A stretch of 64,000 bases of DNA, from contig NZ_ADEG01000068.1 of assembly GCF_000177075.1 (NCBI RefSeq), forward strand, positions 1 through 64,000, read 5' to 3'. Shown here one piece after another: positions 6,621 to 47,910 of this stretch (its first letter is position 1; the number at the start of each line of letters is the position of its first letter). The notes below the pieces were generated by a model. That model made no database searches. It saw only the letters and a list, made by a program, of their open reading frames with translations, and was not told the origin of the DNA. The DNA is from Hoylesella buccalis ATCC 35310. Lineage in GTDB: Bacteria; Bacteroidota; Bacteroidia; Bacteroidales; Bacteroidaceae. Both the position numbers and the translations under genes were made by a program.

Positions 6621-6708
6621 CAATCTCAATGAGTTTGGAGGCTAATATCAATGACTTTGGAGGTCAAACTCAATGACTTTAGAGGCCAATCTCATTGCTT
6701 TTGGAAAT
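6621..6708. repeat. 22-bp tandem array A (four units)
   Basis: Four consecutive 22-base units (starts 6621, 6643, 6665, 6687) share the core TCAATGACTTTGGAGGC with one to several changes each and begin CAA or TAA. No spacer separates them. The array lies in the divergent gap between the 5872-6471 gene and nhaD. Just after it, GGCCTG-TTTTT-CAGGCC (6719-6735) makes a perfect small hairpin. No gene lies in the gap. Confidence 0.8.
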
Positions 6709-6833
6709 CTGTATTTTTGGCCTGTTTTTCAGGCCGACGACGGGTTCGTAGTTCTATGTTGAGGTTGGGATATGCCATTAGAAGGGTGTTGCAAAATAAA
6801 GAGGGTGTTAATAATAATAAAGATGTGTTTTTT

Positions 6834-6865
6834 TTTGGTTGTTCAGTAGGCAACAACTATCTTTG
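6834..6865 (+). promoter_or_regulatory. nhaD promoter
   Basis: TTTG (6834-6837), 20 bases, TATCTTTG (6858-6865). The transcript would start near 6871, leaving a ~90-base leader. Confidence 0.6.
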
Positions 6866-6961
6866 CAAAGATTTTTCAGCCAAGGCTATCAAAGACACTT
6901 TTCAGCACTCTGTAGCATGATTTCAGCTGAACTTAACGAAAAATAATTAGATATAAATTTT

Positions 6962-8311
6962 ATGACATCTTTAACGTTAGCGATTGTTGTCGTTTTCATC
7001 ATTGGTTATCTATGTATAGCCATTGAGAGTGTTACTAAGGTGAATAAGGCCGCTGTTGCCTTATTGATGTTCGTGTTCTGCTGGACACTGTTCATGCTCG
7101 ACCCAAATGCGTATATGCCTGGGGTTACGGGGCAAGACTTGATTAACCAGGTGAGCCATGTCATTGAAAAGCATTTGGGTAGTACGTCTACCACTTTGTT
7201 CTTCTTGATGGGTGCCATGACCATTGTCGAGGTGGTTGACCAGAATGGTGGATTCAACTTCGTGCGCGATGTCATGAAGACTAAGAGCAAGCGAACCCTG
7301 TTGTGGCGTATCGCTTTCATGACTTTCATCCTCTCTGCCATCTTGGATAACCTGACTACCAGTATCGTGATGATCATGATTTTACGCAAGTTGGTACATA
7401 GTCACGAAGACCGTTTGATATATGCTTCTTTGGTCATCATCTCGGCTAACGCCGGTGGAGCGTTCTCGCCTATCGGCGATGTGACGACCATTATGCTGTG
7501 GAACAAGGGTGTTATCACGGCTTTGGGCGTGATGGAAGAAATCTTCCTGCCATCGGTTATGGCCATGGTTGTGCCAGCATTCATCATGCAATATTCATTG
7601 AAAGGCGAGTTGGAGATGGCGGAAGTCAACATGAAGTCCGACTATCATGTGCTTGACTTTACTGAGCGGCAGCGCAAAGTGATATTCATAGTCGGCGTTG
7701 GCGGCTTGATGTTTGTACCGATTTTCAAGAGCTTGACCCACCTGCCGCCGTTTGTAGGCATCTTGTTGGTGCTGGGTGTGCTTTGGACTGTCACCGAGGT
7801 GTTCTACCGTGGGTTGGATCATAAGAAAGATGGAATGGGCAAGCGCGTGAGCAAACTGCTGTCTAACATCGACATGTCTACCATCCTGTTCTTCCTTGGT
7901 ATCCTCATGGCAGTGGCTTGTTTGGAAGAAATTGGCGTGCTGGGAGGCCTGGGCGTATGGCTCAACGACGTGTCTAACGGCAACCACTATGTGGTGACAG
8001 GTGTGATTGGTGTGATTTCGAGCATCGTAGACAATGTTCCCTTGGTGGCTGGATGCATGGGCATGTACCCCTTGGAGGCTGTTGGCGACATGGCTATTGA
8101 TGGAATTTTTTGGCAGTTGCTGGCTTACTGTGCCGGTGTTGGTGGGTCTATCCTCATCGTGGGCAGTGCGGCTGGCGTGGTTGTGATGGGTCTGGAGAAG
8201 ATTACCTTCGGTTGGTATATGAAGCATGTCAGCTGGTTAGCCTTCGTTGGTTACCTTGCAGGTATCTTGAGTTACTGGGTTATCCGTTCGTTCATCATAC
8301 CTATGCCCTAA
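6962..8311 (+). CDS. nhaD: Na+/H+ antiporter NhaD
   Basis: 449 residues, very hydrophobic, with about 12 predicted membrane segments; the first begins at residue 4. It exports sodium (or lithium) in exchange for protons at the inner membrane. Diagnostic stretches are FILSAILDNLTTSIVMIMIL, with the conserved Asp-Asn, the SANAGGAFSPIGDVTTIMLW segment, and a second Asp-Asn in SIVDNVPLVAGCMGMYPL. These paired, discontinuous-helix motifs are characteristic of the NhaD/ArsB (ion transporter) superfamily. It is expressed from its own promoter (6834-6865) and is followed by a decayed gene, so it is probably monocistronic. Confidence 0.93.
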   Translation: MTSLTLAIVVVFIIGYLCIAIESVTKVNKAAVALLMFVFCWTLFMLDPNAYMPGVTGQDLINQVSHVIEKHLGSTSTTLFFLMGAMTIVEVVDQNGGFNFVRDVMKTKSKRTLLWRIAFMTFILSAILDNLTTSIVMIMILRKLVHSHEDRLIYASLVIISANAGGAFSPIGDVTTIMLWNKGVITALGVMEEIFLPSVMAMVVPAFIMQYSLKGELEMAEVNMKSDYHVLDFTERQRKVIFIVGVGGLMFVPIFKSLTHLPPFVGILLVLGVLWTVTEVFYRGLDHKKDGMGKRVSKLLSNIDMSTILFFLGILMAVACLEEIGVLGGLGVWLNDVSNGNHYVVTGVIGVISSIVDNVPLVAGCMGMYPLEAVGDMAIDGIFWQLLAYCAGVGGSILIVGSAAGVVVMGLEKITFGWYMKHVSWLAFVGYLAGILSYWVIRSFIIPMP

Positions 8312-8371
8312 TAATTTCACTGAACAACGCTTTACAAAATGGTACGGCTGACCTGATTGAAACATGAAATA

Positions 8372-8708
8372 ATGGGGAACAAACGTACGACATTCCTGTC
8401 TGTGTTATTACTGATAACGGTATCGGTGATGGCACAGACAGGTTCTGTTTTTGAGCAATACCTCGCCAATGCCACCGCGTTTGTTAACCTCTGCTGTATC
8501 CTAAGAGTGGATTTGACGATACGATGAAAGATAACCGCCGCAGGCGTTGTATTGGAATCCACGATTAAAAACTGACGAAAATGGTTGTGCCACCATTGAG
8601 AATTACAACGGTCGTAATGTCACTTACATGAATGTGGATGTCGAAACCTTGGTGGCTGGCAAGCCTGCTGCGGTGAATACGCTATCCTATCCTACGAGAA
8701 AAAGGTAG
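8372..8708 (+). pseudogene. Remnant of a secreted macroglobulin-like/TonB-plug protein
   Basis: The ATG at 8372 opens a normal signal peptide (MGNKRTTFLSVLLLITVSVMAQ) and some 30 residues (TGSVFEQYLANATAFVN) before a stop. In another frame, from 8541, ALYWNPRLKTDENGCATIENYNG continues to a stop at 8706-8708. The YWNP...D-G-ATI-YN pattern resembles the C-terminal part of the large alpha-2-macroglobulin-like MG2/TonB-plug proteins of Bacteroidetes; this assignment is from memory. The two ends sit in different frames with the large middle missing, so this looks like an internal deletion plus frameshift. The last bases overlap the end of the acetyltransferase gene on the other strand. Confidence 0.6.
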
Positions 8709-9273
8709 CATGATATTGCAAGTGTTTCATGGGATGGCCACCCCATGTGGTGTCACCAACATACCTGAATCCTTGGGCTACATACAGTTTTTCGGCCAAA
8801 GGGTTATCTTTGTCTACCAATAAGCCAATCTTGTGAATGCCCATTGATTGAGCCTTTGTAATCGATTCCAATATGAGTCGTTTCGCAATACCTTGTCTTC
8901 GATAGTCGGGATTGACGGCCAAGCTGTCGATGTATAGTTCATCATTATCGGCTTCATCAATCTGGTTCTGGTAGTCTATATCGAATTTTTTGAGTGCAGC
9001 GTCAATGAATGGCTGCCGAAGGTCATGCAGCTGGGCGCCGTCATAGCTTACGCAAACGCCGATAACCTCATCTTCATCGTTCAATGCAACCAGGGTATTG
9101 GTATAACTGTATTGTGATTTTTCCAGCGCAACGAGCTCTGTCAGCAGGTCTTCAAACTCGGTTAACGTATGATGAGGCCCCGCCAAGTTTTGACAACATT
9201 CATAGTTCATGGCCAGCATGATGTACTTTGCAATCTCTCTGGCCTGGTGTTTGCTTGCTTGTATTATCTTCAT
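8692..9273 (-). CDS. GNAT-family N-acetyltransferase
   Basis: 193 residues. The acetyl-CoA-binding signature is clear: LYIDSLAVNPDYRRQGIAKRLI, with the RRQGIA pyrophosphate loop, followed by the helix ITKAQSMGI and the strand/helix pair IGLLVDKDNPLAEKLYVAQGFRYVG typical of GNAT motifs A and B. The acceptor is unknown. It overlaps the end of the upstream sensor kinase by four bases (ATGA), so it is translationally coupled to the two-component system and may act in the same response. Confidence 0.88.
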   Translation of the reverse strand: MKIIQASKHQAREIAKYIMLAMNYECCQNLAGPHHTLTEFEDLLTELVALEKSQYSYTNTLVALNDEDEVIGVCVSYDGAQLHDLRQPFIDAALKKFDIDYQNQIDEADNDELYIDSLAVNPDYRRQGIAKRLILESITKAQSMGIHKIGLLVDKDNPLAEKLYVAQGFRYVGDTTWGGHPMKHLQYHATFFS

Positions 9274-10685
9274 TTCTTCTTTTTTAAATTAAACTCGAAA
9301 CAGAGTCCGCCTGTTTCTACATTGTGAACTTGTATGCTTCCTCCGTGCAACATGATGGCATTCTTGACAATAGCCAATCCAAGTCCGGTGCCACCGAGCT
9401 TCCTACTCCTGCCTTTGTCTACGCGATAGAATCGTTCGAACAGTCTGGAAAGATGCTGATTTGATACGCCTATGCCGTTATCTCGGAAGGTAAATCTCCA
9501 TTCTTGCTCATCTTCTTTTCCGTCAAGGGTGATGGTTGTCCCGTCACCAGCGTATGTAATGGCATTGTCAGTCAAGTTTCTAAATACGCTGTACAACAGA
9601 CTTTGGTTGCCTTGGATGATGACGTTTTCTGGTAAGTTGTTGACAAAAGCCATGTGATGATTATGCATTTGCAGTTCCGTTTCCTTGCAGATGTTCTCAA
9701 TCATCTGCGAGATGTTCACGGGTGAGTATTCCATCAAGTCGGGAGCATCATCAATTCTGTTCAGCGTAGAGATGTCTTGCAGCAAGGAAGTGAGCCGTTG
9801 ACTCTGCGCATAGCTGTGTTGCAAGAATTGTTGTCGCGTCGCTTCATTGATGTGAGGGTTGTCCAAGATGGTTTCCAAATAGCCTTGAATGCTGGCCACT
9901 GGCGTTTTTAATTCGTGCGCAATGTTTTGAGTAAGCTGTCTTTTCAGAATGTCCTGTTCCTGTCTGGTGCTCTGAAGACGCTTGTATATCTTGATGATTC
10001 GTTCGGCTATTTCGCCCAACTCGTCGTCTGGAAAGGCAATTAAGTCTTCGGTATCGAGGCTCTCATTGTGGTCGGCACGACTGGCAAACAACTTCAATTT
10101 GGTGATGTTGGCCGACAATCTTCTTAAAAATCGCCACAACACCAGCGTCAAGATGACAATCGCTGTGAGTGCAAACCAAATGAAATGTTGGTCGGCTTGC
10201 AGCGACTTAGCTAAGCCGTTGTTGTACGGCAAGGCACTCCTAATCGTCATCTTGTCATCCTTGAAGTAGGTTGCCGAATAGAAAAACTCTTGTTTCAGGG
10301 TCTTACTGTTTCGTTCTACGCTTGACCCTGTCCCCGTTTTCCGTGCCTCAATTATCTCCGGACGGTTGGCATGATTCTTAAAGTTGCTGTAGTCTTTTTG
10401 GAAATTGTCAAACACAACCTGTCCTTGATCATCGATTATTGTTACCCGCAGGTTAGGTATGCTGTGCGTCTTTACATAGGTACTCAGCGTTTGTTCGTCT
10501 CTCTTGCCCAGGTATTGAATGGCATCTGCCATCCTGGTGTTATAGCCTTGCAGCCTCATGTTCAGCAGTTCCCGCTTGTATTGCTTTTCTCTTGTCTGTT
10601 GAAAGACTATGAACGAGATGGCAAAAAGCAAGAATACCGCCAAGATACTGATGTATAGTTTGCTGCCTACCGATACCTTTCTCAT
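9270..10685 (-). CDS. Sensor histidine kinase (PhoR-like)
   Basis: 471 residues. An N-terminal membrane segment (about 9-29) and a second at about 168-187 (IWFALTAIVILTLVLW) bracket a periplasmic sensor region of ~140 residues. A HAMP-like linker follows, then the H-box NIAHELKTPVASIQGYLE with the phospho-accepting His at 257, the N-box (FRNLTDNAITYAG), and ATP-lid motifs DNGIGVS and GTGLGLAIV. It should phosphorylate the OmpR/PhoB-type regulator encoded immediately upstream, whose stop overlaps this start. The signal is unknown; architecture and order resemble PhoBR-like systems. Confidence 0.93.
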   Translation of the reverse strand: MRKVSVGSKLYISILAVFLLFAISFIVFQQTREKQYKRELLNMRLQGYNTRMADAIQYLGKRDEQTLSTYVKTHSIPNLRVTIIDDQGQVVFDNFQKDYSNFKNHANRPEIIEARKTGTGSSVERNSKTLKQEFFYSATYFKDDKMTIRSALPYNNGLAKSLQADQHFIWFALTAIVILTLVLWRFLRRLSANITKLKLFASRADHNESLDTEDLIAFPDDELGEIAERIIKIYKRLQSTRQEQDILKRQLTQNIAHELKTPVASIQGYLETILDNPHINEATRQQFLQHSYAQSQRLTSLLQDISTLNRIDDAPDLMEYSPVNISQMIENICKETELQMHNHHMAFVNNLPENVIIQGNQSLLYSVFRNLTDNAITYAGDGTTITLDGKEDEQEWRFTFRDNGIGVSNQHLSRLFERFYRVDKGRSRKLGGTGLGLAIVKNAIMLHGGSIQVHNVETGGLCFEFNLKKKK

Positions 10686-11377
10686 AGAACATCAAAGTAG
10701 TATCCAAAGCCAAGTCGGGTGACAATGCACTTGGAGAACCGTCCAATCTTCTTTCTTAGTCGTGTGATGTTCACGTCTACCGTGCGGTCGAGCACCAAAA
10801 CGTCCTTTGGCCATATCCTGTCTATGAGCTCCTGACGTGAGAAGACGTGTCCCTTTTCAGAAAGAAATAGGTGCAGTAACTCGAACTCTGTCTTGGTGAA
10901 AGGAACATTTTCACCGTCGATGGTCACTGTCTTTTTGTCCAAATCCATCTCCAACCCTTGGTATTTCAGCGTCTTCGGCTCTGTGTGATCGTCAGTTTCG
11001 TTGGTCCTTCGGATGACAGCACGAATGCGAACCAATACTTCGCGAATGGAGAAAGGCTTACTGATATAGTCGTCAGCGCCAAGATTGAAGCCGGTTACCG
11101 TATCGTTCTCGGTATCGCGAGCGGTCAGAAAGATGATGGGAATGCTGGCTGTCTTGGGATTCTCTTTCAGCTTTTTAGCCATGGAAAATCCCGACATCTC
11201 ACCCATCATCACGTCTAACAGCAGGAGGTTGAACGATGAAATGTCCATCATCATGGCCTCTTCGGCAGAGTTTGCCGTTTCTACCACATAGCCTTCTGTT
11301 TCCAAATTAAACTTCAGAATTTCACATAAGTCTTGTTCGTCGTCTACAACGAGAATACGATATTTGTTCTCTTTCAT
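10682..11377 (-). CDS. OmpR/PhoB-family response regulator
   Basis: 231 residues. The receiver domain has the acidic pair D12/D13, phospho-acceptor D55 (LLLLDVMM), T85 and K107 (YISKPFS). A C-terminal winged helix (about 130-230) contains the transcription-activation and DNA-recognition features of PhoB/OmpR (FTKTEFELLHLFLSEKG, LDRTVDVNITRLRKKIG). It binds DNA as a dimer after phosphorylation by the kinase encoded next. First gene of a three-gene operon with overlapping ends. Candidate promoters are at 11536-11566 and 11404-11411. Confidence 0.94.
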   Translation of the reverse strand: MKENKYRILVVDDEQDLCEILKFNLETEGYVVETANSAEEAMMMDISSFNLLLLDVMMGEMSGFSMAKKLKENPKTASIPIIFLTARDTENDTVTGFNLGADDYISKPFSIREVLVRIRAVIRRTNETDDHTEPKTLKYQGLEMDLDKKTVTIDGENVPFTKTEFELLHLFLSEKGHVFSRQELIDRIWPKDVLVLDRTVDVNITRLRKKIGRFSKCIVTRLGFGYYFDVL

Positions 11378-11403
11378 ATAGTTTGTTATCTATTTTCACT
11401 TGA

Positions 11404-11411
11404 CAAAGTTA
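11404..11411 (-). promoter_or_regulatory. Proximal -7 box for the regulator operon
   Basis: Minus strand TAACTTTG, 27 bases before the start at 11377. No TTG at the expected -33 distance, so weaker than the distal promoter. Confidence 0.35.
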
Positions 11412-11535
11412 GCACGTTGGCTCTTCATAAGCATGTCAAACGTGTTACAATCGTATTACTTTTAGACATAATTCCAGCTGGGCATGCTTGAAGTATGCAT
11501 CTGGTGGCAGGCCGATATCCACTTGCCTAATGCTA

Positions 11536-11566
11536 CAAAGTTACGCAATAAAAAGCATTTTGTCAA
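11536..11566 (-). promoter_or_regulatory. Distal promoter for the regulator operon
   Basis: Minus strand TTG, 20 bases, TAACTTTG (-7 box at 11543-11536), giving a leader of about 150 bases before 11377. Confidence 0.5.
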
Positions 11567-11606
11567 GTCTTGGCGGTAATTATTTAAAATGGTAGATTGA
11601 TATACA

Positions 11607-11642
11607 ATAGCGGGAAACCTCTTTGTGGTGGCCTCCCGCTAT
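11607..11642 (-). terminator. Hairpin downstream of cysK
   Basis: ATAGCGGGA (11607-11615) pairs perfectly with TCCCGCTAT (11634-11642). It lies 36 bases beyond the cysK stop. The T-run is better on the plus-strand side (GCTTTTTC), so its efficiency for cysK is uncertain. Confidence 0.5.
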
Positions 11643-15217: not shown

Positions 15218-15327
15218 ATGGGGCATTGAGCATGGGTTTCAATGTCATTGAGTTTGCGTTCCAATGTCATTGAGTTTGGGCATTAATAGCATTGACTTTG
15301 GAGGCCAAACTCAATGCTATTGGAAGG
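15218..15327. repeat. 22-bp tandem array B (five units)
   Basis: Units start at 15218, 15240, 15262, 15284 and 15306. The central ones read TCATTGAGTTTG and GCATTGACTTTGGAGGC, the last CTCAATGCTATTGG. The first unit is the most degenerate. It lies in the convergent gap before the manA terminator. Confidence 0.8.
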
Positions 15328-15369
15328 ATATCTATATCTTCTTGTCAACCAAACGATTAACCATTACAA

Positions 15370-21249: not shown

Positions 21250-21571
21250 ATAAATTTATATGAACAATGCGTCCTTTGTGCTGAATTTTGCTGGTAGACA
21301 TGCGGTGCTTTCATGTAGGAATGACGCATTGTGTTTATTACGTCAAGCAGAATATTTATTGGTGAAAAGCCCGCGGTCGCTACGTCTTTTTAACACAAAT
21401 GCTGGGCGTTTTTGAAGCCAACCTGTTGATGTGCTGAAAATAAGCCAAGGATTCAACGGTTTTATTATCCGCTTGATGGTGAGTGAGTTAGATGGTTTTC
21501 TAACTTTGAAGGCCATCAATAAGAGATGTGTTTGTGACAAAAACTCCATCTATTTGTGCCAAAACGGCCTT

Positions 21572-21681
21572 TTATAGCATGTTAATAGGTGAGCAATAGC
21601 ATGCATATTGCGGGGCAAAAGCATAGCTATTGGGAGATAAAAGCATGGCAATTGGCAATTTGTTCCATGCGAATGGGCCAA
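21572..21681. repeat. 22-bp tandem array D (five units, GCATG subtype)
   Basis: Units start at 21572, 21594, 21616, 21638 and 21660. Cores read AGCATGCATATTGCGGGG, AGCATAGCTATTGGGAGA and AGCATGGCAATTGGCAAT. The sequence differs from arrays A-C, but the register is the same: CA at unit positions 7-8 and TTG at 15-17 in the middle units, and the period is again exactly 22. Confidence 0.75.
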
Positions 21682-21931
21682 AAGATGATGCGTTTATGAC
21701 TTGTTTTCTCTATTTCGCGATTTTGTTTTGTCAAAGAAAATGAATCGATTTAACAAACGAAAGGTTTGTTAACACGAACAGATTTCGTTGTGATTCGTAA
21801 GCAGACAAAAAGGGTTCCGTTGACAAAGAAAATCCCTTCTCCATGCCGCATATCTGTGTGCTGCAATGGTGATTAGGGCGGTTAAAAATGAGTTTTATCT
21901 TGAAATGCTGAATTTTTTCATGAAAAATGCT

Positions 21932-27043: not shown

Positions 27044-27131
27044 ACAAGTCATTGACTTTGGTGGGCAAACCCATTGACTTTGGCCTTCAAACCCAATGCT
27101 TTTGCCGCCCAAACTCAATGCTCTAAAAACC
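27044..27131. repeat. 22-bp tandem array C (four units)
   Basis: Units start at 27044, 27066, 27088 and 27110, with cores GTCATTGACTTTGGTGGG, CCCATTGACTTTGGCCTT, CCCAATGCTTTTGCCGCC and CTCAATGCTCTAAAAACC. The last three begin CAAA. It lies in the divergent gap between ddh and ruvA; no gene is otherwise present there. Confidence 0.8.
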
Positions 27132-27273
27132 CTAATGATATGAGTTTTAAATGTCACCCGTATGCGTGAGCGGTTGGATGGCGGCTGCATGGTGTGTTCA
27201 TTCTTTCCATGCGCCACGCAATAAGCGGGCCTTTGCTGCGTTATCTCTAGCGTATATATACATATTATAACAC

Positions 27274-33900: not shown

Positions 33901-35558
33901 ACGGCAAGAAGAGCAAGCGGCTCATCGTTTCGGCCCGCACAGAGGATGGAAAAACCTATCACTTGAAGTACAAGAAGATTAATCCAAACACCATCCGCAT
34001 CAAGAATAAGGTTGATTCGGCCTTGAAACTCAAGATTACCGTCTTACCGAAAGAGCCGTTGGAGAATAAAGGTTGGTACCGAACGGCACAGTCGGTGGCG
34101 CGCCTGTTGATGATGGTGCGCAACGTCAGCGTGAGCTATCGTGACGACTATGCCATGGCGTTGCCGGGATTCTTGCCTACGGTGGGTGATGCTTTCGGGC
34201 AGACCAAAGCACCAAGCGCACTCTCGCCGGGCCTCGACTTCGCCTTTGGTATGGTGGATGATTCGTACATCGAGCGAGCCAGGGCAAACAATTGGCTGTT
34301 GATTTCCGACTCCATAGCCACGCCGGCCACGTCTAATCACACGCAAGACCTGCAGCTGCGCATGACTTTGGAGCCTGTTCGTAACTTCAAAATCGATTTG
34401 AATGCCAGTCGCACGCAAACCACTTCAAGGAGCGTGCAATACATGTATCAGGGCAACCCGATGACCCAAACCGGCAATTTCACCATGACCACCCTCTCGC
34501 TTCGCAGCGCCTTTGAGGGGATAGGTGACGCTGGCAACGGCTTCCGCAGCAAGTCGTTTGATGATTTCTGCCAGTCGCTCGACGGCTTCCGTCAGCGGGT
34601 TGAGGCGCAATATGCGGGCTTTGTCTACCCCAAGGGCACACCGCTGGCCGGCCAACCTTTCGAGCCTGCCAATGGTGGCGTAGACCGCTACAGCTCGGAT
34701 GTCATGATACCCGCCTTCCTCTCCACCTACACCAGTATGGGTGGTCATTCGCTCAACATCTTCCCTTCGTTGGCAAGACTGCTGCCTAACTGGACCATTC
34801 GGTACAGCGGACTGGGCAAACTGCCTTGGTTCAGGGATGTGTTCAAAAGTGTCACCCTCAACCATTCCTACAAAAGCATCTTCGCCATTGGGTCGTACAG
34901 CAGCTACAGCACCTTCCAAGAGTTTATGAACGGCTTGGGATTTGTCACCAACGCCACCACCGGAATGCCCGTTCCCAGCAGCATGTACAACGTTTCTGCG
35001 GTGAGCATCAACGAGGCCTTCTCGCCTTTGTTGGGGCTGGATGTCACGTTTAACAACAACTTGACCACCCGTTTGGAATATCGATCAACACGCGTGTTGA
35101 ACCTCAGTACCACGAGTGTGCAAATCAATGAGGCCATCAGTCGCGACTGGGTGCTGGGCATGGCGTATAAGGTTAACAACCTGGAGCTATTTGGCGGCAA
35201 CAAACGACGTGTGGTTCGGCGTACGAAGGGCAATGGCCAGCAGCAGCAACAACAGCAAAACAGCAGCACCAGCAACCGCAACAGTACCAGATCGAACCGT
35301 GACCTGAACATGCGCCTTGACCTGAGTTACCGCCGACAGGCAGCCATCAGTAGGGACATCGCCACCATGACCAGTGCCGCAAGCAGTGGCAATACAGCCT
35401 TCAAGTTCCAGTTCTCGGCCGACTATACGCTGTCGCGTCTGCTCACCATGACGCTTTATTACGACCAACAAACCAACACGCCGCTACTCTCCAGCAGCAG
35501 TTTCCCGACCACTACTCATGATTTTGGCGTCAGTCTCAAGTTCAGTCTCACCCGATAA
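27930..35558 (+). CDS. sprA: Giant cell-surface protein SprA (type IX secretion translocon)
   Basis: 2542 residues. In Bacteroidetes, SprA is the very large outer-membrane barrel through which type IX secretion substrates pass. A signal segment (MRNKRRIYGFVVTLLVMSMAS) is followed by alternating long beta-rich stretches with recurrent amphipathic strands; the protein ends FGVSLKFSLTR. Family-typical segments include NLNYNTDATFDFDAQNLKLKY and AEFAQLIAGQSHG. A basic low-complexity insert rich in Asn/Arg/Lys covers about residues 1910-1970, and a seven-Gln run lies near residue 2440. It is directly downstream of ruvA. No other type IX component is in the window, so system function is inferred from the family. 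Confidence 0.93.
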   Translation: MRNKRRIYGFVVTLLVMSMASYAMRMPFWQDNRTRTTNRQQPQKQTEPQRKDTIDIKAQPQLDDDLNIPDSLLNPRWKIQRTLPVTIDDLNQSPLDLKRPQNLQQNVIYNDTLDRYIIGSKIGAAWLNAPIMMTPEEYRAWSEKRLFDQYFRSKNAEIFENKGKEKFDFTNMHFELGPAEKIFGPGGVRIKTQGTAELKFGGTVKKIDNPSLPIRNRKMTTMNFDEKINLNVNGRVGDKVNMNLNYNTDATFDFDAQNLKLKYDGKEDEIIKLVEGGNVSFPSNSSLIKGASSLFGLRTDMQFGKLKLQMVASQKKSADKSVSSRGGAQFTPFEINVANYEENRHFFLSQYFRQTYDDNMKSLPNLTSGVKINRVEIWVTNNSGVTTNTRNIIALTDLGENKYISNGLWNATGQMVPSNNANTEYGTLVGQLASARNIDQSTTVLDGGGLVGGVDYEKLERARLLNPSEYTVNTALGYVSLRMGLQTDQVLAVAYEYTYGGATYQVGEFASDVTDVNAALFVKSLKNTSNNPRQGNWRLMMKNVYELASRVEREKFRLDVKFQSDTAGVYLTYIPEPQVKDQPIIRLLGADRLDNNNKPHSNGYFDFVEGYTVSDGRVFFPVAEPFGSYIHRYLVSKGVNEEKAKRYAFTELYDSTKTVAKQIAEKNKYVLMGQFRGSAANVISLGAYNVPQGSVVVTAGGVRLTENADYSVDYAAGEVTILNQSIINAGTNVNVSLESNTDFAQERKTMFGVNWEYDFSKDLQLSGTLQHLSEQALTNKVNMGSEPLNNTLWGVNLNWKKESQWLTNVLDKIPFLHLTQPSNISLNAEFAQLIAGQSHGTQDNASYLDDFENTTNKIDVSTPTSWIMSSVPSMFPEYSDKTTLRSGYNRALLAWYTIDPLFTRRSSSLTPKHIKSDLEQLSNHYVREVYVRELYPKRDQSSYSGATATLPILNLAYYPSERGPYNFNPDLTAKGLLNNPKQKWGGMMRKLDYSDFESSNIEYIEFWMLDPFIYTRQEGTASEYGGDFYINLGEVSEDILHDGKKFYESGLPVDGTQTYITTQWGKIPTPATVTYAFATNKGARALQDLGFNGLTDEEEKNFEAYQDFLKQIQGKVSPDVFNAILNDVANDNYHYFRGRDYDEMQASILRRYKYINNPQGNSPDTDTRGERYDTSYKGTPDVEDINQDYTLNEYEKYFQYHVSIRPEDLVVGKNYIVDKRDAIAPLRNKKKEPVTWYQFRIPIREFERRFGSISDFTSIRFMRMFLTGFEKPIVLRFGSFDLVRGDWRIYEQQLDPAGSNSGTMSVSSVNIEENNDKTPVNYVLPPGIRRAQDPTQRQLVEANEQALDIVVSNLATGDAKAVYKNASVDLRQYIRLQMFVHANAMEQNTTNLQDGQLAVFVRLGNDYKSNYYEYEIPLKLTAPKEYNRYSLSDVREVWPEENMLDIPLKLFTDLKRQRNKDKAQGQASYNRVYTSYDPDKPNNKVSVMGNPTLGEVKTMMIGVRNKAGEMKSGEVWVNELRLLEYNNEGGWAAQGNLNVQMSDFGTVNLQGRYMSEGFGGLEEGVAQRSTDDYQNYSVTANLELGKFFPEKAHVSAPLYYSVQQEQLSPKYNPLDTDMRLKDALDAASNRQERDSIESIAVTKTTNTNFSLSNVRVGIQTKRHPMPYDPANFSFSYSHSHRNTSGETTVYEKEDSWNGSLSYSWTPVFKPLEPFKKIKNKSKWFDILKRFGLNWLPQNIAFNTDMMRNYYELQERDMQDLGGSQLPLTFNQQFMWNRDFTLRWDLTKNIHMNFQSTTQAEIEEPYTPVNKDLYPDRYSAWKDSVRTSIRNFGTPLDYRQQFSLSYQLPLNLLPIFDWVNADANYSSNYSWVRGTRLEDGTSLGNIVTTNRRVNVNGRFDLQRLYNHIPFLKATNDRFNRNPQRNATNRSRSSRIVGNDGNRNTRNKNARNAARRSAQDAKAEAQKKQLPKNKKGFEQQITLLPDTTITVSHGKKSKRLIVSARTEDGKTYHLKYKKINPNTIRIKNKVDSALKLKITVLPKEPLENKGWYRTAQSVARLLMMVRNVSVSYRDDYAMALPGFLPTVGDAFGQTKAPSALSPGLDFAFGMVDDSYIERARANNWLLISDSIATPATSNHTQDLQLRMTLEPVRNFKIDLNASRTQTTSRSVQYMYQGNPMTQTGNFTMTTLSLRSAFEGIGDAGNGFRSKSFDDFCQSLDGFRQRVEAQYAGFVYPKGTPLAGQPFEPANGGVDRYSSDVMIPAFLSTYTSMGGHSLNIFPSLARLLPNWTIRYSGLGKLPWFRDVFKSVTLNHSYKSIFAIGSYSSYSTFQEFMNGLGFVTNATTGMPVPSSMYNVSAVSINEAFSPLLGLDVTFNNNLTTRLEYRSTRVLNLSTTSVQINEAISRDWVLGMAYKVNNLELFGGNKRRVVRRTKGNGQQQQQQQNSSTSNRNSTRSNRDLNMRLDLSYRRQAAISRDIATMTSAASSGNTAFKFQFSADYTLSRLLTMTLYYDQQTNTPLLSSSSFPTTTHDFGVSLKFSLTR

Positions 35559-35752
35559 CGCTTCGCCTCGCCGCCGCTGTTGTTCATCGGAAGGAGCCTG
35601 TTTGTATGGGATATTTTCTTGACAATCACTTCGCCAATACTTCCATATTTTCGTTCTTCGCCCTGTCGGCGGCAAATATCGCCAAAATAGCGCATTTGCT
35701 CTTCTTGCTGATGTTCAATCACTTAGCTTGTTTTGAGACTCCTTTTTGATTT

Positions 35753-35884
35753 CACCACTTATGCTTTAGCCCTGCAAAAGCATGCTTATTGCCGTCTTAG
35801 TAGCATGCTTTTGCGCGTCAATCTGTACGTTCTAAGGCAGTAAAGTCATTGACTTTGGAGCCATAAGGGCATGATTTGCGCCCG
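35753..35884. repeat. 22-bp tandem array E (six units, mixed subtypes)
   Basis: Units start at 35753, 35775, 35797, 35819, 35841 and 35863. Two carry GCATGCTTATTG/GCATGCTTTTG, as in array D; one carries GTCATTGACTTTGGAGCC, as in arrays A-C; the 35819 unit is badly decayed. Both subtypes occupy the same 22-base register within one array. Confidence 0.7.
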
Positions 35885-36124
35885 AAAAGGCTTTCAGAAG
35901 CGTCTTTTCATGGGCTGTTCTTGTCTAGAATGTGTGTTGCAGAAGTGTTAAAATTTGACCATTTTTCTTGACAAAATCTTTGCATCATGACGGCCATATC
36001 GATGGTTCGTGGCGGCCTTTTGGCATGCCGAAAAACCGTTGAGGGATAAATCTTACGGAGTATTACACTTTCGTAAAAGAATGTAAATATCCGCCTGTGA
36101 GCGGTGAAAACGTGAATAATTTCG

Positions 36125-42614: not shown

Positions 42615-42631
42615 CCTACGTTGTTTTGGGT

Positions 42632-43969
42632 TTATACCACACCCTGAGCCATCATGGCATGGGCTACTTTCATGAATCCGGCCACGTTAGCACCCTTCAC
42701 ATAGTTGATGTATCCGTCGGGTTGTGTGCCGTATTTCACGCATTGTTCGTGGATAGAGTGCATGATGTAGTGCAACTTCTCGTCCACTTCAGCTTCGCTC
42801 CAGCTCAAACGGATGGCGTTCTGTGTCATCTCAAGACCTGATGTTGCCACACCACCAGCGTTCACTGCCTTGCCAGGAGCAAAGAGCTGTCCGGCTGCAA
42901 CGAACTTGTCAACAGCCTCAGCTGTACATCCCATGTTACTTACTTCTGCTACACAGAGAGGCTTGTTGGCCAAAATGCGGTCGGCATCTTCACCGTTCAA
43001 CTCATTTTGAGTAGCACATGTCAAGTAAATATCGGCTTTCTGTTCCCAAGGTTTCTTGCCTTCATGGAATTCAGAGCCTGCGAATTTGTCGGCGTATGGT
43101 TTGCAAACGTCATTACCGCTGGCACGTAATTCGAGCATATAGGCAATCTTTTCGCCGCTAATGCCGTTGGGATCGTAAATGTAACCGTCAGGACCACTAA
43201 TGGTAATCACCTTTCCTCCCAGTTCTGTGGCTTTGAGAGCAGCGCCCCATGCAACATTTCCGAAACCGCTGATAGCTACTGTCTTGCCCTTGATGTCGAT
43301 ATTGCGTGTCTGCAACATTTGGTTCACAAAGTACAAAGCACCAAATCCTGTTGCTTCTGGACGAATGCGAGAGCCGCCATATTCCAAACCCTTACCGGTG
43401 AGAACGCCTTCCCAGCGACCTACCAACTTCTTGTATTGACCGAACAAATAGCCAATTTCACGACCACCAACACCAATATCTCCTGCAGGAACGTCAGTGC
43501 TTGGACCAATATGCTTGTAGAGTTCGCACATGAACGATTGGCAGAATCTCATCACTTCTGCATCGCTTCTTCCACGAATAGAGAAGTCAGAACCACCTTT
43601 GGCACCACCCATAGGTAAGGTTGTCAATGCGTTTTTGAAGGTTTGTTCAAAGCCCAAGAACTTCATAATAGATAAGTTCACAGATGGGTGGAAACGCAAT
43701 CCGCCTTTGTACGGACCAATGGCGCCGTTGAATTGTACGCGATAGCCGATGTTGACATGAACCTCTCCCTGGTCGTCTACCCAAGGTACGCGGAACATGA
43801 TGATGCGCTCTGGCTCAACAATGCGCTCTATGATTTTAGCTTTCTCAAACTCTGGATGCTCGTTGTACACGTCCTTTACGGATATAAGCACCTCTTTGAC
43901 AGCTTGTAAATACTCAGATTCGCCTGGATGCTTCTTCTCCAGGTCTTGCATGATTTTTTCAATTTCCAT
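42632..43969 (-). CDS. gdhA: NADP-type glutamate dehydrogenase
   Basis: 445 residues, the hexameric small-subunit class. It aminates 2-oxoglutarate to glutamate, the main ammonia entry point in many Bacteroidetes. Visible: substrate-binding GYRVQFNGAIGPYKGGLRFHPSVN; the catalytic Lys region PMGGAKGGSDF; the DVPAGDIGVGGREIGY block; and the nucleotide-binding loop ISGFGNVAWGAALKA. Coenzyme preference (NADP over NAD) is inferred from overall resemblance. Own promoter at 44027-44058. Confidence 0.95.
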   Translation of the reverse strand: MEIEKIMQDLEKKHPGESEYLQAVKEVLISVKDVYNEHPEFEKAKIIERIVEPERIIMFRVPWVDDQGEVHVNIGYRVQFNGAIGPYKGGLRFHPSVNLSIMKFLGFEQTFKNALTTLPMGGAKGGSDFSIRGRSDAEVMRFCQSFMCELYKHIGPSTDVPAGDIGVGGREIGYLFGQYKKLVGRWEGVLTGKGLEYGGSRIRPEATGFGALYFVNQMLQTRNIDIKGKTVAISGFGNVAWGAALKATELGGKVITISGPDGYIYDPNGISGEKIAYMLELRASGNDVCKPYADKFAGSEFHEGKKPWEQKADIYLTCATQNELNGEDADRILANKPLCVAEVSNMGCTAEAVDKFVAAGQLFAPGKAVNAGGVATSGLEMTQNAIRLSWSEAEVDEKLHYIMHSIHEQCVKYGTQPDGYINYVKGANVAGFMKVAHAMMAQGVV

Positions 43970-44026
43970 AGTAGAATTTATTTAATTAGTTGGTTATACA
44001 TGTCATGGATATTATCCAAGACGTGG

Positions 44027-44058
44027 CAAATATAGTTTTTTTATAAATACCCACCAAA
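44027..44058 (-). promoter_or_regulatory. gdhA promoter
   Basis: Minus strand TTTG (44058-44055), 20 bases, TATATTTG (44034-44027); leader about 50 bases. Confidence 0.6.
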
Positions 44059-44162
44059 TATAAAAGGATAAATTCCGATGTCAATGTTTATAAATGTGAA
44101 AACTGATGGAATTACACCTTATATAATAGTTGGCACGAGAGCAGATGAAAGTTCGTTAGAAA

Positions 44163-44194
44163 TTTGTACATATACATTGTATTTCCTACATTTG
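44163..44194 (+). promoter_or_regulatory. Promoter for the receiver/PEP-synthase-like gene
   Basis: TTTG (44163-44166), 20 bases, TACATTTG (44187-44194); leader about 85 bases before 44283. Confidence 0.6.
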
Positions 44195-44282
44195 TCGTGT
44201 CTATATGATCCAATGAAAGGAAGTTCTTTATTTTGGAAACCTTATTCGTTTGGTTAGTTCTTACTTCTTGAATAAATCATTT

Positions 44283-47249
44283 ATGAACGATTCTGTGCCT
44301 TCTCAATGGCGTAATTTCTTATTGAAGGATGTGACTTTTGTCAATCTCATGATGAGACGTATTTATAATGTCTTAATCGTTGCCAATCCCTATGACGCAT
44401 TCATGTTGGAAGATGACGGCAGGGTAGAGGAGAAAATTTTCAACGAGTATATGGAGTTGGGTTTACGCTATCCGCCTACCTTTACACAGGTGAGCACCAC
44501 GGAAGAGGCGACCCGCATACTTCAGTCCACACCGATAGATTTGGTGATATGTATGCCAGGAACCGCTGACAATGACGCTTTTACCGTGGCGCACAACATT
44601 AAAGACGCCTTTCCTGATATTCATTGCATCGTTCTCACGCCTTTTTCGCATGGCATTACGCGTAGGATGGAGAACGAAGATCTGAGCATTTTCGATTATG
44701 TATTTTGTTGGTTGGGCAACACGAATCTCATTATGTCCATCATCAAGCTGATGGAAGACAAGATGAACTTGGAGCACGATATCATCGAAGGTGGCGTACA
44801 AATGATATTGTTGGTAGAGGACAGCATTCGTTTTTATAGTTCCATACTGCCCAATCTGTACAGTTACATATTGGAACAGAACAAGCATTTGTCCTTTGAG
44901 GCATTGAACAGACATGCTGCTACGTTGCGTATGCGTGGTCGTCCAAAGGTGGTTTTGGCTCGAACTTATGAGGAAGCGATGGATTATTACAATCGTTTTG
45001 CGGACAACATATTAGGCGTTATCAGCGATGCCCGTTATCCTAAGGGCGGAGTGAAAGACGCCGAAGCGGGTTTGAAACTGTTGCGTGAGATTCGCAAGCG
45101 TGACCCTTATCTGCCTTTAATCGTGGAAAGTTCGGAGTCAAGCAATCGGGAAAAGACCGAAAGGGAGGGCTTCCGCTTTGTCGATAAGAACTCGAAGGTG
45201 ATGGGAATAGACCTCCGTCATATCTTTGAAGAGCACATGGGCTTTGGCGATTTCATCTTCAGAGACCCGCTTACCCGTCAGGAAATCATGCGCGTGCATT
45301 CGCTCAAGGAACTGCAAGACAATATTTTCAAGATACCAGATGATTCGTTTCGCTTTCATGTCTCACGCAATCACATGAGTCGTTGGCTCAGTGCACGCTC
45401 AATATTCCCCATCTCCGAGTTTCTTAAAAACATCACTTGGGACAAATTGCAAGACTTGCAAGCGCATCGGCAAATCATCTTCGATGCCATTGTGCAATAT
45501 CGCAAGATGAAAAACATAGGCGTGGTAGCGGTGTTCGACCGATTGAAATTCGACCAATATGCCCACTTCGCTCGTATCGGTGAAGGCTCGTTGGGCGGAA
45601 AAGGGCGTGGCCTTGCTTTCTTAGACCATATCATCAAGATGCACCCCGACTTTAATCAGTACGAAGGAGTGAAGGTGCAAATCCCAAAAACGCTGGTTCT
45701 TTGTACGGATTTGTTCGACCAATTCATGGACGAGAACAATCTTTATGACGTTGCCTTGAGCGATGCGACAGACGAAGAGATACTGCACAGCTTCTTGAAA
45801 GCCAAGTTGCCAGAGCGTCTGCGCGATGACTTTATCACGTTTTTCGATGCTACCAAGAGTCCGATAGCCATTCGTTCCAGTTCGTTGTTAGAAGATTCGC
45901 ATTATCAACCTTTTGCCGGAATCTATTCTACTTACATGATTCCCTCGCTCGATGACAAGCAAGTGATGCTCCAAATGTTGGCCTGTGCCATCAAGGGCGT
46001 GTATGCATCGGTGTTCTATCATGATTCCAAGGCTTACATGACGGCTACTCGCAACCTGATTGACCAAGAAAAAATGGCGGTTATCTTGCAAGAAGTGGTG
46101 GGCAAGCAGTATGATACGCACTATTATCCCAAGATAAGTGGGGTGCTGCGCTCGCTGAATTATTATCCCATTGGCAACGAAAAGGCCGAAGAGGGCATTG
46201 CCTCATTGGCTTTGGGATTGGGTAAATACATTGTAGATGGCGGTCAAACTTTGCGTGTGTCTCCTTATCATCCTCGTCATGTCTTGCAAACCAGCGAACT
46301 GGAAAAGGCCTTGCGCGAGACCCAAACGCAATTCTATGCCCTCGACACGGCTCACGTGGGACAGGATTTTCAGGTAGACGATGGTTTCAACATCCTCAAA
46401 TTGGATGTAAAATCTGCCGAGAAAGATGGCTCCCTGCAATACATTGCGTCTACTTACGACCCTAACAATCAGATGATTAGAGATGGACTGTACGACGGAG
46501 GGCGCAAGATTATATCTTTCTGTAGTGTGCTGCAACACGATGTGTTCCCATTGGCACCCATCATGCAGATGGCAATGAACTATGGTGCGGAGAGCATGCG
46601 GTGCCCCGTAGAAATAGAGTTTGCCTGTGATATCAATGCCGATAGGACAGGGGAATTCTACTTATTACAAATCCGTCCCATTGTCGATTCCAAGCAAATG
46701 CTCGACGAGGACGTTGTCGCCATTGCCGATGAACGGTGTTTGTTGCGTTCGCACAACTCGTTAGGACATGGCATTATGGACGATGTTTGTGACGTTGTTT
46801 ATGTAAAAACCAACGCTTCATTCACTGCGAAGAATAATCCTGCGATTGTAGGGGAGATAGAAAAGCTCAACGAGCAGTTCTTGTCTCGAGGTCAAGGTTA
46901 TGTATTGATAGGGCCGGGACGCTGGGGTTCGAGCGACCCTTGGTTGGGCATTCCTGTAAAGTGGCCACAAATCAGTGGTGCAAAGGTTATTGTCGAAACC
47001 ACATTAAACAACTACCGTATCGACCCAAGTCAAGGGACGCACTTCTTTCAAAACCTCACCAGTTTTGGTGTGGGCTATTTTACGATTGATGAGGTGGGTG
47101 GCAATGGCGTGTTCAGACAAGATGTTTTGGATGCCATGCCAGCTGTCGAAGAAACCACTTATGTTCGCCATGTTCGGTTCGATGCCCCATTGCGTATTTT
47201 GATGGACGGTCAGAAACAAGAGGGAGTGGTTCTGCTTTCTGAAACATAG
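44283..47249 (+). CDS. Two receiver-like domains fused to a PEP-synthase-type nucleotide-binding domain
   Basis: 988 residues from the ATG at 44283; an open TTG at 44250 is less likely. Residues ~25-165 resemble a receiver (YNVLIVANPYDAFML...IDLVICMPGTADND...HCIVLTPFSHG), and ~175-320 a second one (MILLVEDSIRFYSSIL...GVISDARYPKGG...PLIVESSESS), where acidic residues at the phosphorylation positions are partly kept. From about 420 it becomes a pyruvate-phosphate-dikinase N-terminal (ATP-grasp) domain: GEGSLGGKGRGLAFL, SPIAIRSSSLLEDS, FAGIYSTYM, and GEFYLLQIRPIV. The phospho-histidine swivel and PEP-binding barrel of true PEP synthase are missing; instead ~150 C-terminal residues carry GYVLIGPGRWGSSDPWLGIPV. 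It cannot be a complete PEP synthase. Such proteins recur in Bacteroidetes; function unknown. Confidence 0.85.
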   Translation: MNDSVPSQWRNFLLKDVTFVNLMMRRIYNVLIVANPYDAFMLEDDGRVEEKIFNEYMELGLRYPPTFTQVSTTEEATRILQSTPIDLVICMPGTADNDAFTVAHNIKDAFPDIHCIVLTPFSHGITRRMENEDLSIFDYVFCWLGNTNLIMSIIKLMEDKMNLEHDIIEGGVQMILLVEDSIRFYSSILPNLYSYILEQNKHLSFEALNRHAATLRMRGRPKVVLARTYEEAMDYYNRFADNILGVISDARYPKGGVKDAEAGLKLLREIRKRDPYLPLIVESSESSNREKTEREGFRFVDKNSKVMGIDLRHIFEEHMGFGDFIFRDPLTRQEIMRVHSLKELQDNIFKIPDDSFRFHVSRNHMSRWLSARSIFPISEFLKNITWDKLQDLQAHRQIIFDAIVQYRKMKNIGVVAVFDRLKFDQYAHFARIGEGSLGGKGRGLAFLDHIIKMHPDFNQYEGVKVQIPKTLVLCTDLFDQFMDENNLYDVALSDATDEEILHSFLKAKLPERLRDDFITFFDATKSPIAIRSSSLLEDSHYQPFAGIYSTYMIPSLDDKQVMLQMLACAIKGVYASVFYHDSKAYMTATRNLIDQEKMAVILQEVVGKQYDTHYYPKISGVLRSLNYYPIGNEKAEEGIASLALGLGKYIVDGGQTLRVSPYHPRHVLQTSELEKALRETQTQFYALDTAHVGQDFQVDDGFNILKLDVKSAEKDGSLQYIASTYDPNNQMIRDGLYDGGRKIISFCSVLQHDVFPLAPIMQMAMNYGAESMRCPVEIEFACDINADRTGEFYLLQIRPIVDSKQMLDEDVVAIADERCLLRSHNSLGHGIMDDVCDVVYVKTNASFTAKNNPAIVGEIEKLNEQFLSRGQGYVLIGPGRWGSSDPWLGIPVKWPQISGAKVIVETTLNNYRIDPSQGTHFFQNLTSFGVGYFTIDEVGGNGVFRQDVLDAMPAVEETTYVRHVRFDAPLRILMDGQKQEGVVLLSET

Positions 47250-47910
47250 AAAACGGCTTGGCGGCTTGTGGGGAATAAAGCCCTATGTTCATCACAGTTC
47301 TTTCATTGACGAAAGGTGTTTTGTTGGGAAAACAATCTTTGATTACATGTTTCATTGATTGTACAACAATTCTCCTTCAATGAAAGAGCTGCGTCTTTTA
47401 AGCCATGTTGTTTTTGTCCTATCGTTTTACCAAAAAACGACCATTAGAAATCTTCAAAATAGAAAAAATCAATAGGCAAGCGGTAGACAAAAGTACGCTC
47501 ATTTGGGCAAAATAAACGTCGTTTTTAGGTTAGAGCATTGACTTTACGTCCTTAGAAGCATCATCTTGGAGTGTTATCAACATGACATTGCAGCATAAAA
47601 GCATGCATATTCGATGCTAATCTCCATGCTATTGCCAGCAAGAAGCGATAAAAATAGGAATGAAAAGAGGTGGTTTTTGTGTAATGTATTCAATAACAAT
47701 AAATTACGAATGTCGCTCATATTTTGCGTATTTGCGACCAATTGTACCGTTGGTGGTCTACACGCGAATTATGAGAGGCACTTTGTAAAGAATAATCGGT
47801 GCGAAATTTGAAGAATTGGTCATACGGATGACTGAGAACGGCAAATGGTTGGCAGCTCTTGGAACCTACGCCATGACTGCCTAATATGTCAATCCAAGAC
47901 TTGAGTTGGG
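47250..47910. other. Long convergent gap with array F and an inverted repeat
   Basis: 661 bases without a supported gene. TCTTTCATTGA (47299-47309) is matched by the inverted TCAATGAAAGA (47377-47387), with small inner stems (TGTTTT/AAAACA; ATTGT/ACAAT), possibly the 3' end structure of the 44283-47249 transcript. Array F follows (47508-47639). Confidence 0.45.
47508..47639. repeat. 22-bp tandem array F (six units, mixed subtypes)
   Basis: Units start at 47508, 47530, 47552, 47574, 47596 and 47618. Cores include AGCATTGACTTTACGTCC (A-C subtype), AGCATGCATATTCGATGC (D subtype) and CTCCATGCTATTGCCAGC. The period stays 22 although the first unit is strongly decayed. Confidence 0.7.

Follow-up and report, generated by a model that had tools for sequence, protein, structure and literature searches.

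The window, that is, the whole 64-kb stretch of DNA that was analysed, carries six tandem arrays of a 22-bp unit, some of which are accompanied by one or both of two recurrent flanking sequences, arms A and B. Arrays are placed in class I or class II by the clustering of their flanks. In window positions, the features are the following:

734 to 809, minus strand: lone arm B without detectable array (nhmmer; a low-threshold scan found no array there)
6620 to 6705, plus strand: array 1, four units, naked (class II), in a divergent intergenic region (profile 94 bits; 22 bp by Tandem Repeats Finder)
15223 to 15355, plus strand: array 2, about 5-6 units, naked (class II), in a convergent intergenic region (profile 103 bits)
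21397 to 21475, plus strand: arm A, short variant, next to array 3 (nhmmer, alignment)
21566 to 21656, plus strand: array 3, about four units, class I, in a divergent intergenic region and inside a dispersed element of about 490 bp (profile 57 bits)
27046 to 27147, plus strand: array 4, about four units, naked (class II), in a divergent intergenic region (profile 85 bits)
35559 to 35948, no strand assigned: stretch with array 5, missing in the sister genome G070 (comparison with sister genomes)
35761 to 35877, plus strand: array 5, about five units, the outer ones weak, class I by flank similarity only, without arm match (profile 65 bits, flank cluster)
47409 to 47483, plus strand: arm B of the array 6 element (nhmmer)
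47534 to 47639, plus strand: array 6, about five units, class I, in a convergent intergenic region (profile 55 bits)
47697 to 47786, minus strand: arm A of the array 6 element, as an inverted repeat (nhmmer, alignment)

The original prediction had named six arrays in this stretch, and all of them are recovered by a cyclic 22-state profile HMM with scores of 55-103 bits, while the reversed sequence gives none. With Tandem Repeats Finder, three of them show the 22-bp period. Self-identity at lag 22 reaches 0.64-0.74 in arrays 1-4 and only 0.35 and 0.42 in arrays 5 and 6, so that the detection of these last two depends on the profile. With up to three mismatches, a core pattern of 13 bases matches 60 times in the window, against a mean of 26.9 and a maximum of 39 in dinucleotide shuffles. 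No Rfam family matches the window at gathering scores.

The exact period and the persistent scaffold (CA at unit positions 7-8, TTG at 15-17) described beforehand are both borne out: in the larger sample presented below, 269 of the 276 unit steps measure 22 bp, a count made with a profile model that itself penalises indels, and in the profile that recovered the six arrays the scaffold bases stand at 0.77 (C7), 0.72 (A8), 0.97 (T15), 0.87 (T16) and 0.81 (G17). The unit, with the consensus CAAAATCATTGATTTTGGCGGC, is in addition a quasi-palindrome with its dyad at unit position 9, a property absent from the earlier description. The usual array consists of 4-6 units, which abut at the 22-bp period and lack the unique spacers that separate CRISPR repeats.

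The phenomenon is wider than these six cases. A profile scan of 958,907 bases (32%) of the source Prevotella genome found 75 arrays and none in reversed controls, which amounts to about one array per 10 kb across all gene arrangements and, if the sampled third is typical, to roughly 240 arrays genome-wide. The claim that no array lies inside a gene holds in substance rather than to the letter: 65 of the 75 are wholly outside ORFs of at least 100 aa, ten overlap one and four of these do so wholly; when overlapping ORFs shorter than 600 bp are assumed to be spurious and removed, two of the 75 still touch a called ORF. A genome scan had been suggested as a check, and in the source genome it returns arrays that are nearly all intergenic and evenly spaced. 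Only one of 67 gaps is shorter than 5 kb, where four random-placement designs give null means of 18.0-21.6 and 0 of 2000 trials each match the observation; a separate spacing test of the gaps gives 0 of 3000 random trials. The minimum distance is kept across both classes, with gaps below 5 kb in 0/32 same-class and 1/35 cross-class pairs, a count in which two arrays labelled class II carry arm A. An 81-kb array-free desert holds conjugative-transposon genes. Class II arrays are depleted in divergent regions (3/39 vs 49/191) and lie closer to 3' ends (median 130 bp) than to 5' ends (243 bp). Divergent genes flank 12 of the 31 class I arrays.

A shared arm is present on at least one side of 36 of the 75 arrays and both arms, in fixed order, in 21; the remaining arrays are naked. 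Flank clustering yields 35 class I arrays, 38 class II arrays and one pair later counted with class II, the exceptions to these labels being the class II arrays C60_11681 and C60_122592, which have an arm A match, and the class I array C50w_35761, which has no arm match. The stretch 21303-21790 around array 3 has many partial or whole copies in sister genomes, mostly 64-70% identical, and the lone arm B at 734 to 809 is possibly an eroded element. A match to a known mobile element had been named as an outcome that would speak against a distinct family. With one class I element as the query, phage records gave no match, Rfam gave none at E<=0.1, and plasmid records gave a single match, a Prevotella replicon, within the array.

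The sister genome G070, about 94-95% identical to the source genome, offers a view of constraint on the unit. Of the 19 loci with both flanks in G070 pieces, 15 were counted, leaving out array 35761 (absent in G070), array 47534 (37 of 106 positions differ from the sister), C60_122592 (20-kb length difference) and C60_130996 (1 kb longer). Core positions, those of high information, changed at 42 of 581 (7.2%), with 67.1 changes expected from flank rates by base, and spacer positions at 67 of 353 (19.0%), with 44.7 expected (core vs spacer, Fisher p 1.6e-7); at unit position 3 there was 1 change in 74, and at position 15 none in 74. Over the 15 counted loci, the divergence of whole arrays (11.2%) is close to that of their flanks (12.4%). 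Array length is equal within 1 bp at 12 of the 19 loci, and three of them differ by about 1-2 units (-20, +21 and -45 bp). The apparent insertion of array 5 in the source genome was rejected as such: G070 retains at this locus a piece similar to the element's outer end, and an array is present at the corresponding place in G215, which makes a deletion in G070 the likelier event.

Prevotella sp. oral taxon 299 carries arrays with the class I core at an even higher density: 80 in 500 kb, or about one per 5 kb, with 245 of 248 unit steps equal to 22. Their gaps have a CV of 0.63 against 0.85 in the null (P 0.0007), and the overdispersion is weaker than in the source genome, with six gaps below 2 kb where 12.4 are expected (P 0.008). 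Thirteen of the 80 overlap a called ORF, eight of them by at least 20%; arms A and B have no match in these 500 kb, and in 75 of the 80 the flanks are unlike those of other arrays. By contrast, G029, the nearest non-sister among 13 genomes compared, yields no lag-22 array over 80 kb and a single two-unit match genome-wide. Two stretches of viral contigs have two-unit matches, about the estimated chance level.

Elsewhere in the genus, a 22-bp period recurs with other sequences. In a sample of 20 species (first contigs of genomes listed as 99% complete), lag 22 is the most frequent, with 6 non-coding places against 5 for lag 14 and 4 for lag 21; in a second set of species, partly chosen because a pattern had matched there, the counts are 21, 7 and 7. 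Among 28 arrays of other sequence, trimmed by hand from other Prevotella species, 13 have a dyad-symmetric consensus (p<=0.05); the set omits G159 C23, G175 C2:79653 and G224 C10:97832 as well as second repeats in two long segments (G319, G159). In G006, the counterpart of the intergenic region of array 4 carries a 22-bp array whose sequence is different, and G005 has one near the same gene. Conservation of position with changed sequence was considered and finds no overall support, as 4 of 38 gene ends with an array here have one in the distant relatives and 7 of 74 ends without. One core pattern also matched backward controls elsewhere (for example 10+14 in G203, 14+12 in G224, 8+11 in G175, 8+9 in G006), so that its few matches in G006 and G224 are meaningless. 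No literature on such arrays in Prevotella was found among open-licence papers.

The original prediction took the arrays for a separate family whose repeated bases a protein would recognise from one side of the helix. The family stands: in a near form of the control first suggested, arrays exceed both reversed sequence and backward patterns, and they are intergenic, evenly spaced and constrained at their core bases; binding and coating by a protein remain putative. There is about an even chance that the arrays group sites for a putative DNA-binding protein that would recognise them by sequence and act along the whole chromosome. Each array would offer usually 4-6 quasi-palindromic sites, two helical turns apart, to one predicted protein, most likely acting as a dimer. 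Arrays are retained between genes at intervals of about 10 kb in this species and about 5 kb in oral taxon 299; a bound array may act in the nucleoid as an anchor or a topological barrier, and the full set could then divide the chromosome into domains. A broader version is offered more tentatively, as something possible rather than probable: a chromosome-wide, satellite-like anchoring system that would keep the 22-bp pitch, the dyad and one array per 5-10 kb, while, across many species, one core sequence gives way to another, as expected of a fast-evolving set of sites that co-evolved with its own nucleoid protein.

Other explanations start from the unit itself. Each unit might fold into a small stem-loop, as RNA or as single-stranded DNA, like REP elements or terminators, as its near-palindromic shape and the dyad-symmetric arrays of other Prevotella species would allow. 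However, the halves of the unit pair less than shuffled halves in class II (0.669 vs 0.701), class I (0.480 vs 0.519) and oral taxon 299 (0.634 vs 0.670), so hairpins are not the conserved property; with no base-pairing covariation between halves, no Rfam match, and no Y1 transposase match in the source genome, G070 and G215, this reading appears very improbable. Neutral minisatellites produced by replication slippage are hardly credible and already contradicted. The tandem layout and the three sister loci that differ by 1-2 units fit slippage, as does the modest excess of within-array over between-array likeness in the class II core (0.736 vs 0.679), which makes some duplication possible there. 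The likeness within arrays that is typical of slippage minisatellites and VNTRs is, however, lacking in class I, whose units are as alike between arrays as within them (core 0.517 vs 0.521, spacer 0.288 vs 0.279) and show no slippage signature; stable length at most sister loci, core-base constraint and the spacing rule also stand against it.

Two further readings bear on the arrays as wholes. They could be miniature elements, or the remains of such, whose transposase binds tandem 22-bp sites and shows target immunity, as in Mu and Tn7. The shared arms and their fixed order agree with this proposal, the missing array set in the sampled 80 kb of G029 does as well, and target immunity would account for the scarcity of gaps below 5 kb. 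It is nevertheless unlikely: oral taxon 299 has the class I core with neither arm matches nor, in most arrays, similar flanks, core positions are constrained between sisters at fixed loci, the sole clear case of presence and absence resembles a deletion, and the class I element searched has no phage match and a single plasmid-record match. It is unlikely, too, that the arrays are operators, promoters or transcription-unit ends for the neighbouring genes, bound by a global regulator. In favour are the nearness of class II to 3' ends, its rarity in divergent regions and the precedent of BrickBuilt segments, which drive transcription in both directions (PMC4596501); yet arrays occur about once per 10 kb in all gene arrangements, class I is often placed between divergent genes, and a regulon predicts no minimum distance between sites. 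As regards the anchoring proposal, a purely structural role would not require class II to avoid divergent regions. The lack of positional conservation in distant relatives and the nearly array-free G029 speak against it, as do the possible duplication in class II, the sister loci of unequal length, the strong divergence of array 47534, the similar divergence of whole arrays and flanks, and the weaker overdispersion and the ORF overlaps in oral taxon 299.

One of the closest known systems is BrickBuilt of Porphyromonas gingivalis (Klein et al. 2015, PMC4596501), also intergenic tandem repeats of imperfect units without spacers, whose leader and tail flanks differ from each other and are both missing from 3 of 19 copies. 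The view that the arrays are not BrickBuilt stands as to unit length, 23 nt there, and much less as to anatomy, in which class I elements come close. BrickBuilt, as described in passages of the same paper, is also sparser (19 copies in 2.35 Mb, against 75 in 0.96 Mb), those passages mention no spacing rule, and one section (section 8) gives no BLASTn match outside P. gingivalis while another passage gives P. gulae homologues. Here about half of the arrays are armless, these arms have no match in the 500 kb of oral taxon 299, and the units are constrained between sisters. REP elements and BIMEs are likewise clustered, palindromic intergenic repeats, BIME-2 being bound by DNA gyrase in E. coli (PMC3733652, PMC6379681), and the REP tag GTAG or CGTC (PMC3733652) is missing from the unit consensus. 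The exact tandem period and the lack of covariation also set the arrays apart from them; the RAYT-type Y1 transposase domain PF01797, absent from the source genome, G070 and G215 (0/3), is present in 5 of 14 Prevotella and 5 of 14 control genomes. Iteron and centromere-like arrays (R6K iterons, parC, SopC) are tandem protein sites, some of them about two helical turns apart. These occupy one or a few loci per replicon, in contrast to one array per roughly 10 kb here. The ends of Mu and Tn7 carry clustered binding sites of about 22 bp, and target immunity over kilobases spaces their insertions. Unlike in Mu and Tn7, no element ends are recognised here and constraint acts at fixed loci; Mu-transpos_C (PF09299) matched 0 of 9 genomes, the control genomes being silent as well.

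Supercoiling domains measure about 10 kb in E. coli, and Prevotella is a common human and rumen genus. If the arrays are anchoring sites, some of its members would own sequence-defined chromosome landmarks at the scale of such domains, and the origin of bacterial microdomains would become directly testable with one bait, one protein and mapped sites. Were target immunity the true cause, the arrays would still record immunity distances on a natural chromosome.

Several minor properties were also considered. Intrinsic curvature was rejected as a common property, the predicted bend being 69 vs 46 in flanks for class I and 40 vs 44 for class II. Pairing of arm A as a stem shows a weak excess (0.660 vs 0.639, p 0.048) and was set aside. 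Array polarity and gene direction, compared by counts only, form no clear pattern. Mirror-image element ends were also rejected as a reading of the arrays, since likeness in mirror pairs does not exceed that in pairs drawn from different arrays. Plus-polarity units are unevenly divided between the left and right halves of arrays, with 30/41 vs 11/34 in class II (p 0.0005) and 15/45 vs 29/53 in class I (p 0.04).

The six 22-bp arrays that the original prediction had placed in the window were all recovered, at 55-103 bits, by a cyclic HMM of 22 states that was started from 18 units of the window and then re-estimated, with reversed sequence as the control:

6620-6705, array 1
15223-15355, array 2
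21566-21656, array 3
27046-27147, array 4
35761-35877, array 5
47534-47639, array 6

Applied to 464 kb of the genome from which the window derives, the model finds 36 arrays, and over more contigs the profile scan finds 75 in 958,907 bases, with none in reversed sequence in either case. Across this whole genome, a two-unit pattern allowing up to 3 mismatches gives 146+136 matches (backward control 0). In three of the six window arrays Tandem Repeats Finder also detects the 22-bp period; identity at lag 22 is 0.64-0.74 for arrays 1-4, 0.35 for array 5 and 0.42 for array 6. The exact period originally claimed is kept by 269 of 276 steps, under a model that penalizes indels; arrays hold 2-7 units (median 4.5). 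The further claim that none lies inside genes holds in substance, with 65 of 75 arrays fully outside ORFs of at least 100 aa, in scanned sequence that is 86% coding, and 10 overlapping one; within the window ORFs, two weak single units are seen solely below the usual threshold. In the 464 kb sampled, lag 16 occurs at 11 places, and lags 32 and 48 at 5 apiece; lag 16 ranks next to lags 22 and 44 in frequency, and these repeats are perhaps a second family.

The unit consensus of the first array set is CAAAATCATTGATTTTGGCGGC, in which positions 1-17 form a quasi-palindrome whose dyad lies at position 9, and positions 18-22 a variable spacer. Clustering by flank similarity places 35 arrays in one cluster, class I (consensus CAAAAGCAATGCTTTTGCCGGG); the arrays outside it, class II (consensus CAAACTCATTGAGTTTGGCCGC), have no common flank except for one pair. 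The complete class I element, of about 385 bp, consists of arm B (86 bp), the array, and arm A (91 bp), which is an inverted repeat. Every arm A match and 22 of 23 arm B matches are found no more than 120 bp from an array; arm A accompanies 35 arrays, arm B 22, both 21, and either 36, two arrays with arm A being labeled class II. An arm B copy without any array is found at 734-809 of the window, minus strand. Class II arrays are rarer between divergent gene pairs (3/39, vs. 49/191 other regions, p 0.012) and closer to the 3' than to the 5' ends of genes; class I arrays show no depletion in divergent regions (12/31).

The genome has two sisters, G070 and G215, with about 94-95% nucleotide identity; at five loci, Prevotella sp. 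BV3P1 and Prevotellaceae bacterium SUG2085 are 94-96% identical to it, which assigns the window to Prevotella. Compared with G070 over 15 of 19 loci (one array differing at 37/106 positions and three ill-fitting others were left out), changes affect 42 of 581 high-information positions vs. 67 of 353 spacer positions (p 1.6e-7), and the rate of change per unit position correlates at -0.67 with information content, position 3 having changed once and position 15 not at all, among 74 cases each. At the base-specific rates of the flanks, 67.1 and 44.7 changes, respectively, would be expected, so the core evolves more slowly, and the spacer faster, than the flanking DNA. Entire arrays at the counted loci differ about as much as their flanks (11.2% vs. 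12.4%). Changes on the side of our genome are slightly under-counted, since the arrays were called there. Next to the array of contig C60 near 122592, G070 has about 20 kb of extra DNA (C8, L063-L064). A dispersed repeat of about 155 bp at C79:145077-145231 (L016:5077-5231) has many copies in the sister genomes, and another, of 114 bp at C60:89101-89214 (L023:9101-9214), lies where the match to G215 is interrupted.

Slippage is very unlikely, as two class I units from one array resemble each other no more than two from different arrays (core likeness 0.521 within vs. 0.517 between; spacer likeness 0.279 vs. 0.288). In class II, likeness is higher inside arrays (0.736 vs. 0.679 for the core and 0.365 vs. 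0.313 for the spacer). Array length differs from that in G070 by at most 1 bp in 12 of 19 loci, by about one or two units at three, and by more at four. A hairpin is likewise very unlikely, since unit halves match less than shuffled halves in class II (0.669 vs. 0.701, a value that none of 500 shuffles got down to) and class I (0.480 vs. 0.519, P 0.002). This lowered pairing favors a duplex site with two half-sites over a stem. A CAG/CAA-rich tandem repeat lies at 35238-35281 of the window, near the end of a 2542-aa ORF.

Along the chromosome the arrays are evenly spaced, in that a single one of 67 gaps between neighbors (median 10.2 kb) is below 5 kb, far fewer than under random intergenic placement, which gives a mean of 18.6 and a minimum of 8 over 3000 trials; four null designs, each run 2000 times, give means of 18.0-21.6 and never get down to 1. 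Over all gaps the CV is 0.80, no lower than the 0.83 of the null, because of four gaps above 23.5 kb, and it becomes 0.35 once gaps above 25 kb are removed. With few short gaps but an ordinary overall CV, the spacing signal is therefore a minimum distance, which holds within and across classes (below 5 kb in 0/32 same-class and 1/35 cross-class gaps). The largest array-free gap, of 81 kb (C79:46965-127895), looks like an acquired conjugative transposon because it holds genes for TraM, TraJ, TraG, a coupling protein and two tyrosine integrases, with CTnDOT-type transfer genes. At the array-poor end of contig C102, the single protein examined is a C69 peptidase, uninformative on the cause of the gap.

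The arrays have a constrained core, a minimum spacing and a lack of pairing. We favor, at about even odds, the reading that they are clustered duplex sites for a putative sequence-specific protein, which would bind within each array, the bound arrays then presumably acting chromosome-wide at the scale of domains. The best rival for the spacing is target immunity of a putative transposase, which could set the distances between arrays but alone leaves the core constraint at fixed loci unexplained, and we regard it as rather unlikely.

Among known systems, the BrickBuilt repeats of Porphyromonas gingivalis, as outlined in PMC4596501, are the closest in anatomy. The closest in kind are the palindromic intergenic repeats REP/BIME; gyrase binds BIME-2, which, in the outline of PMC6379681, might contribute to genome organization. 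Of the REP features looked for, the unit consensus has no GTAG or CGTC tag, the genome no match for RAYT (REP-linked Y1 transposase), and the halves no excess of pairing. No description of such arrays in Prevotella was found in the open-licence papers searched.

A 53-bp match led to Prevotella sp. oral taxon 299 (NC_022111.1), where the model, re-estimated on that genome's own sequence, finds 80 arrays in 500 kb (0 reversed), 67 of them fully outside called ORFs; 245 of its 248 unit steps equal 22, and the consensus is TAAAAGCATTGCTTTTGCAATG. In 300 kb, lag 22 occurs at 48 places, and all other lags from 12 to 60 at 3 or fewer, except 44, a multiple of 22. Gap CV is 0.63 vs. 0.85 for the null (P 0.0007), and pairing in the units is lowered (0.634 vs. 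0.670). Since arms A and B have no match there and 75 of 80 flank pairs resemble no other array's, it is the array, not the element, that is common to both genomes.

The class I core pattern matches 40 of 301 genomes of a family sample, being abundant in one, G457 (226+199), and sparse outside it (12+8 in our genome, 7+5 in G597, 2+5 in G613, 3+2 in G274, 1-3 in others). The class II pattern abounds in G000, G070 and G215; in a genus sample of 299 genomes it matches 18, mostly 1-4 times per strand, its backward control giving up to 14 matches per strand in some other genomes. Intergenic 22-bp arrays built on different cores occur in several further Prevotella species; the TTTACC type, for one, gives 98+83 matches in G175 (backward control 6+11) and 76+62 in G224 (17+15). 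A dyad-symmetric consensus, at p≤0.05, is seen in 13 of 28 hand-trimmed arrays from such species. The counterpart of the intergenic region of array 4 has 22-bp arrays of unlike sequence in or beside it in G006 (L052:6542-6692) and G005 (L045:8475-8552). Across 273 kb of other Bacteroidales families, one non-coding lag-22 place was found.

Positions at gene ends are not conserved in distant relatives (4/38 array-bearing ends vs. 7/74 ends without), and G029, the nearest non-sister among 13 genomes compared, has no array in 80 kb and one two-unit match genome-wide, so the array set seems to have been gained or lost over longer times. Some agent must have spread it; in our genome, though not in oral taxon 299, the class I element could have been that vehicle. 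In the actinomycetote Pseudonocardia eucalypti, the Prevotella three-unit pattern matched 4 of 38 loci (L133, L136, L150, L158), and this species has 22-bp arrays of its own, of the TTCAGTGGGTTTGGCACGGTGA type; genome-wide these give 102+67 matches, against 0 for the backward control.
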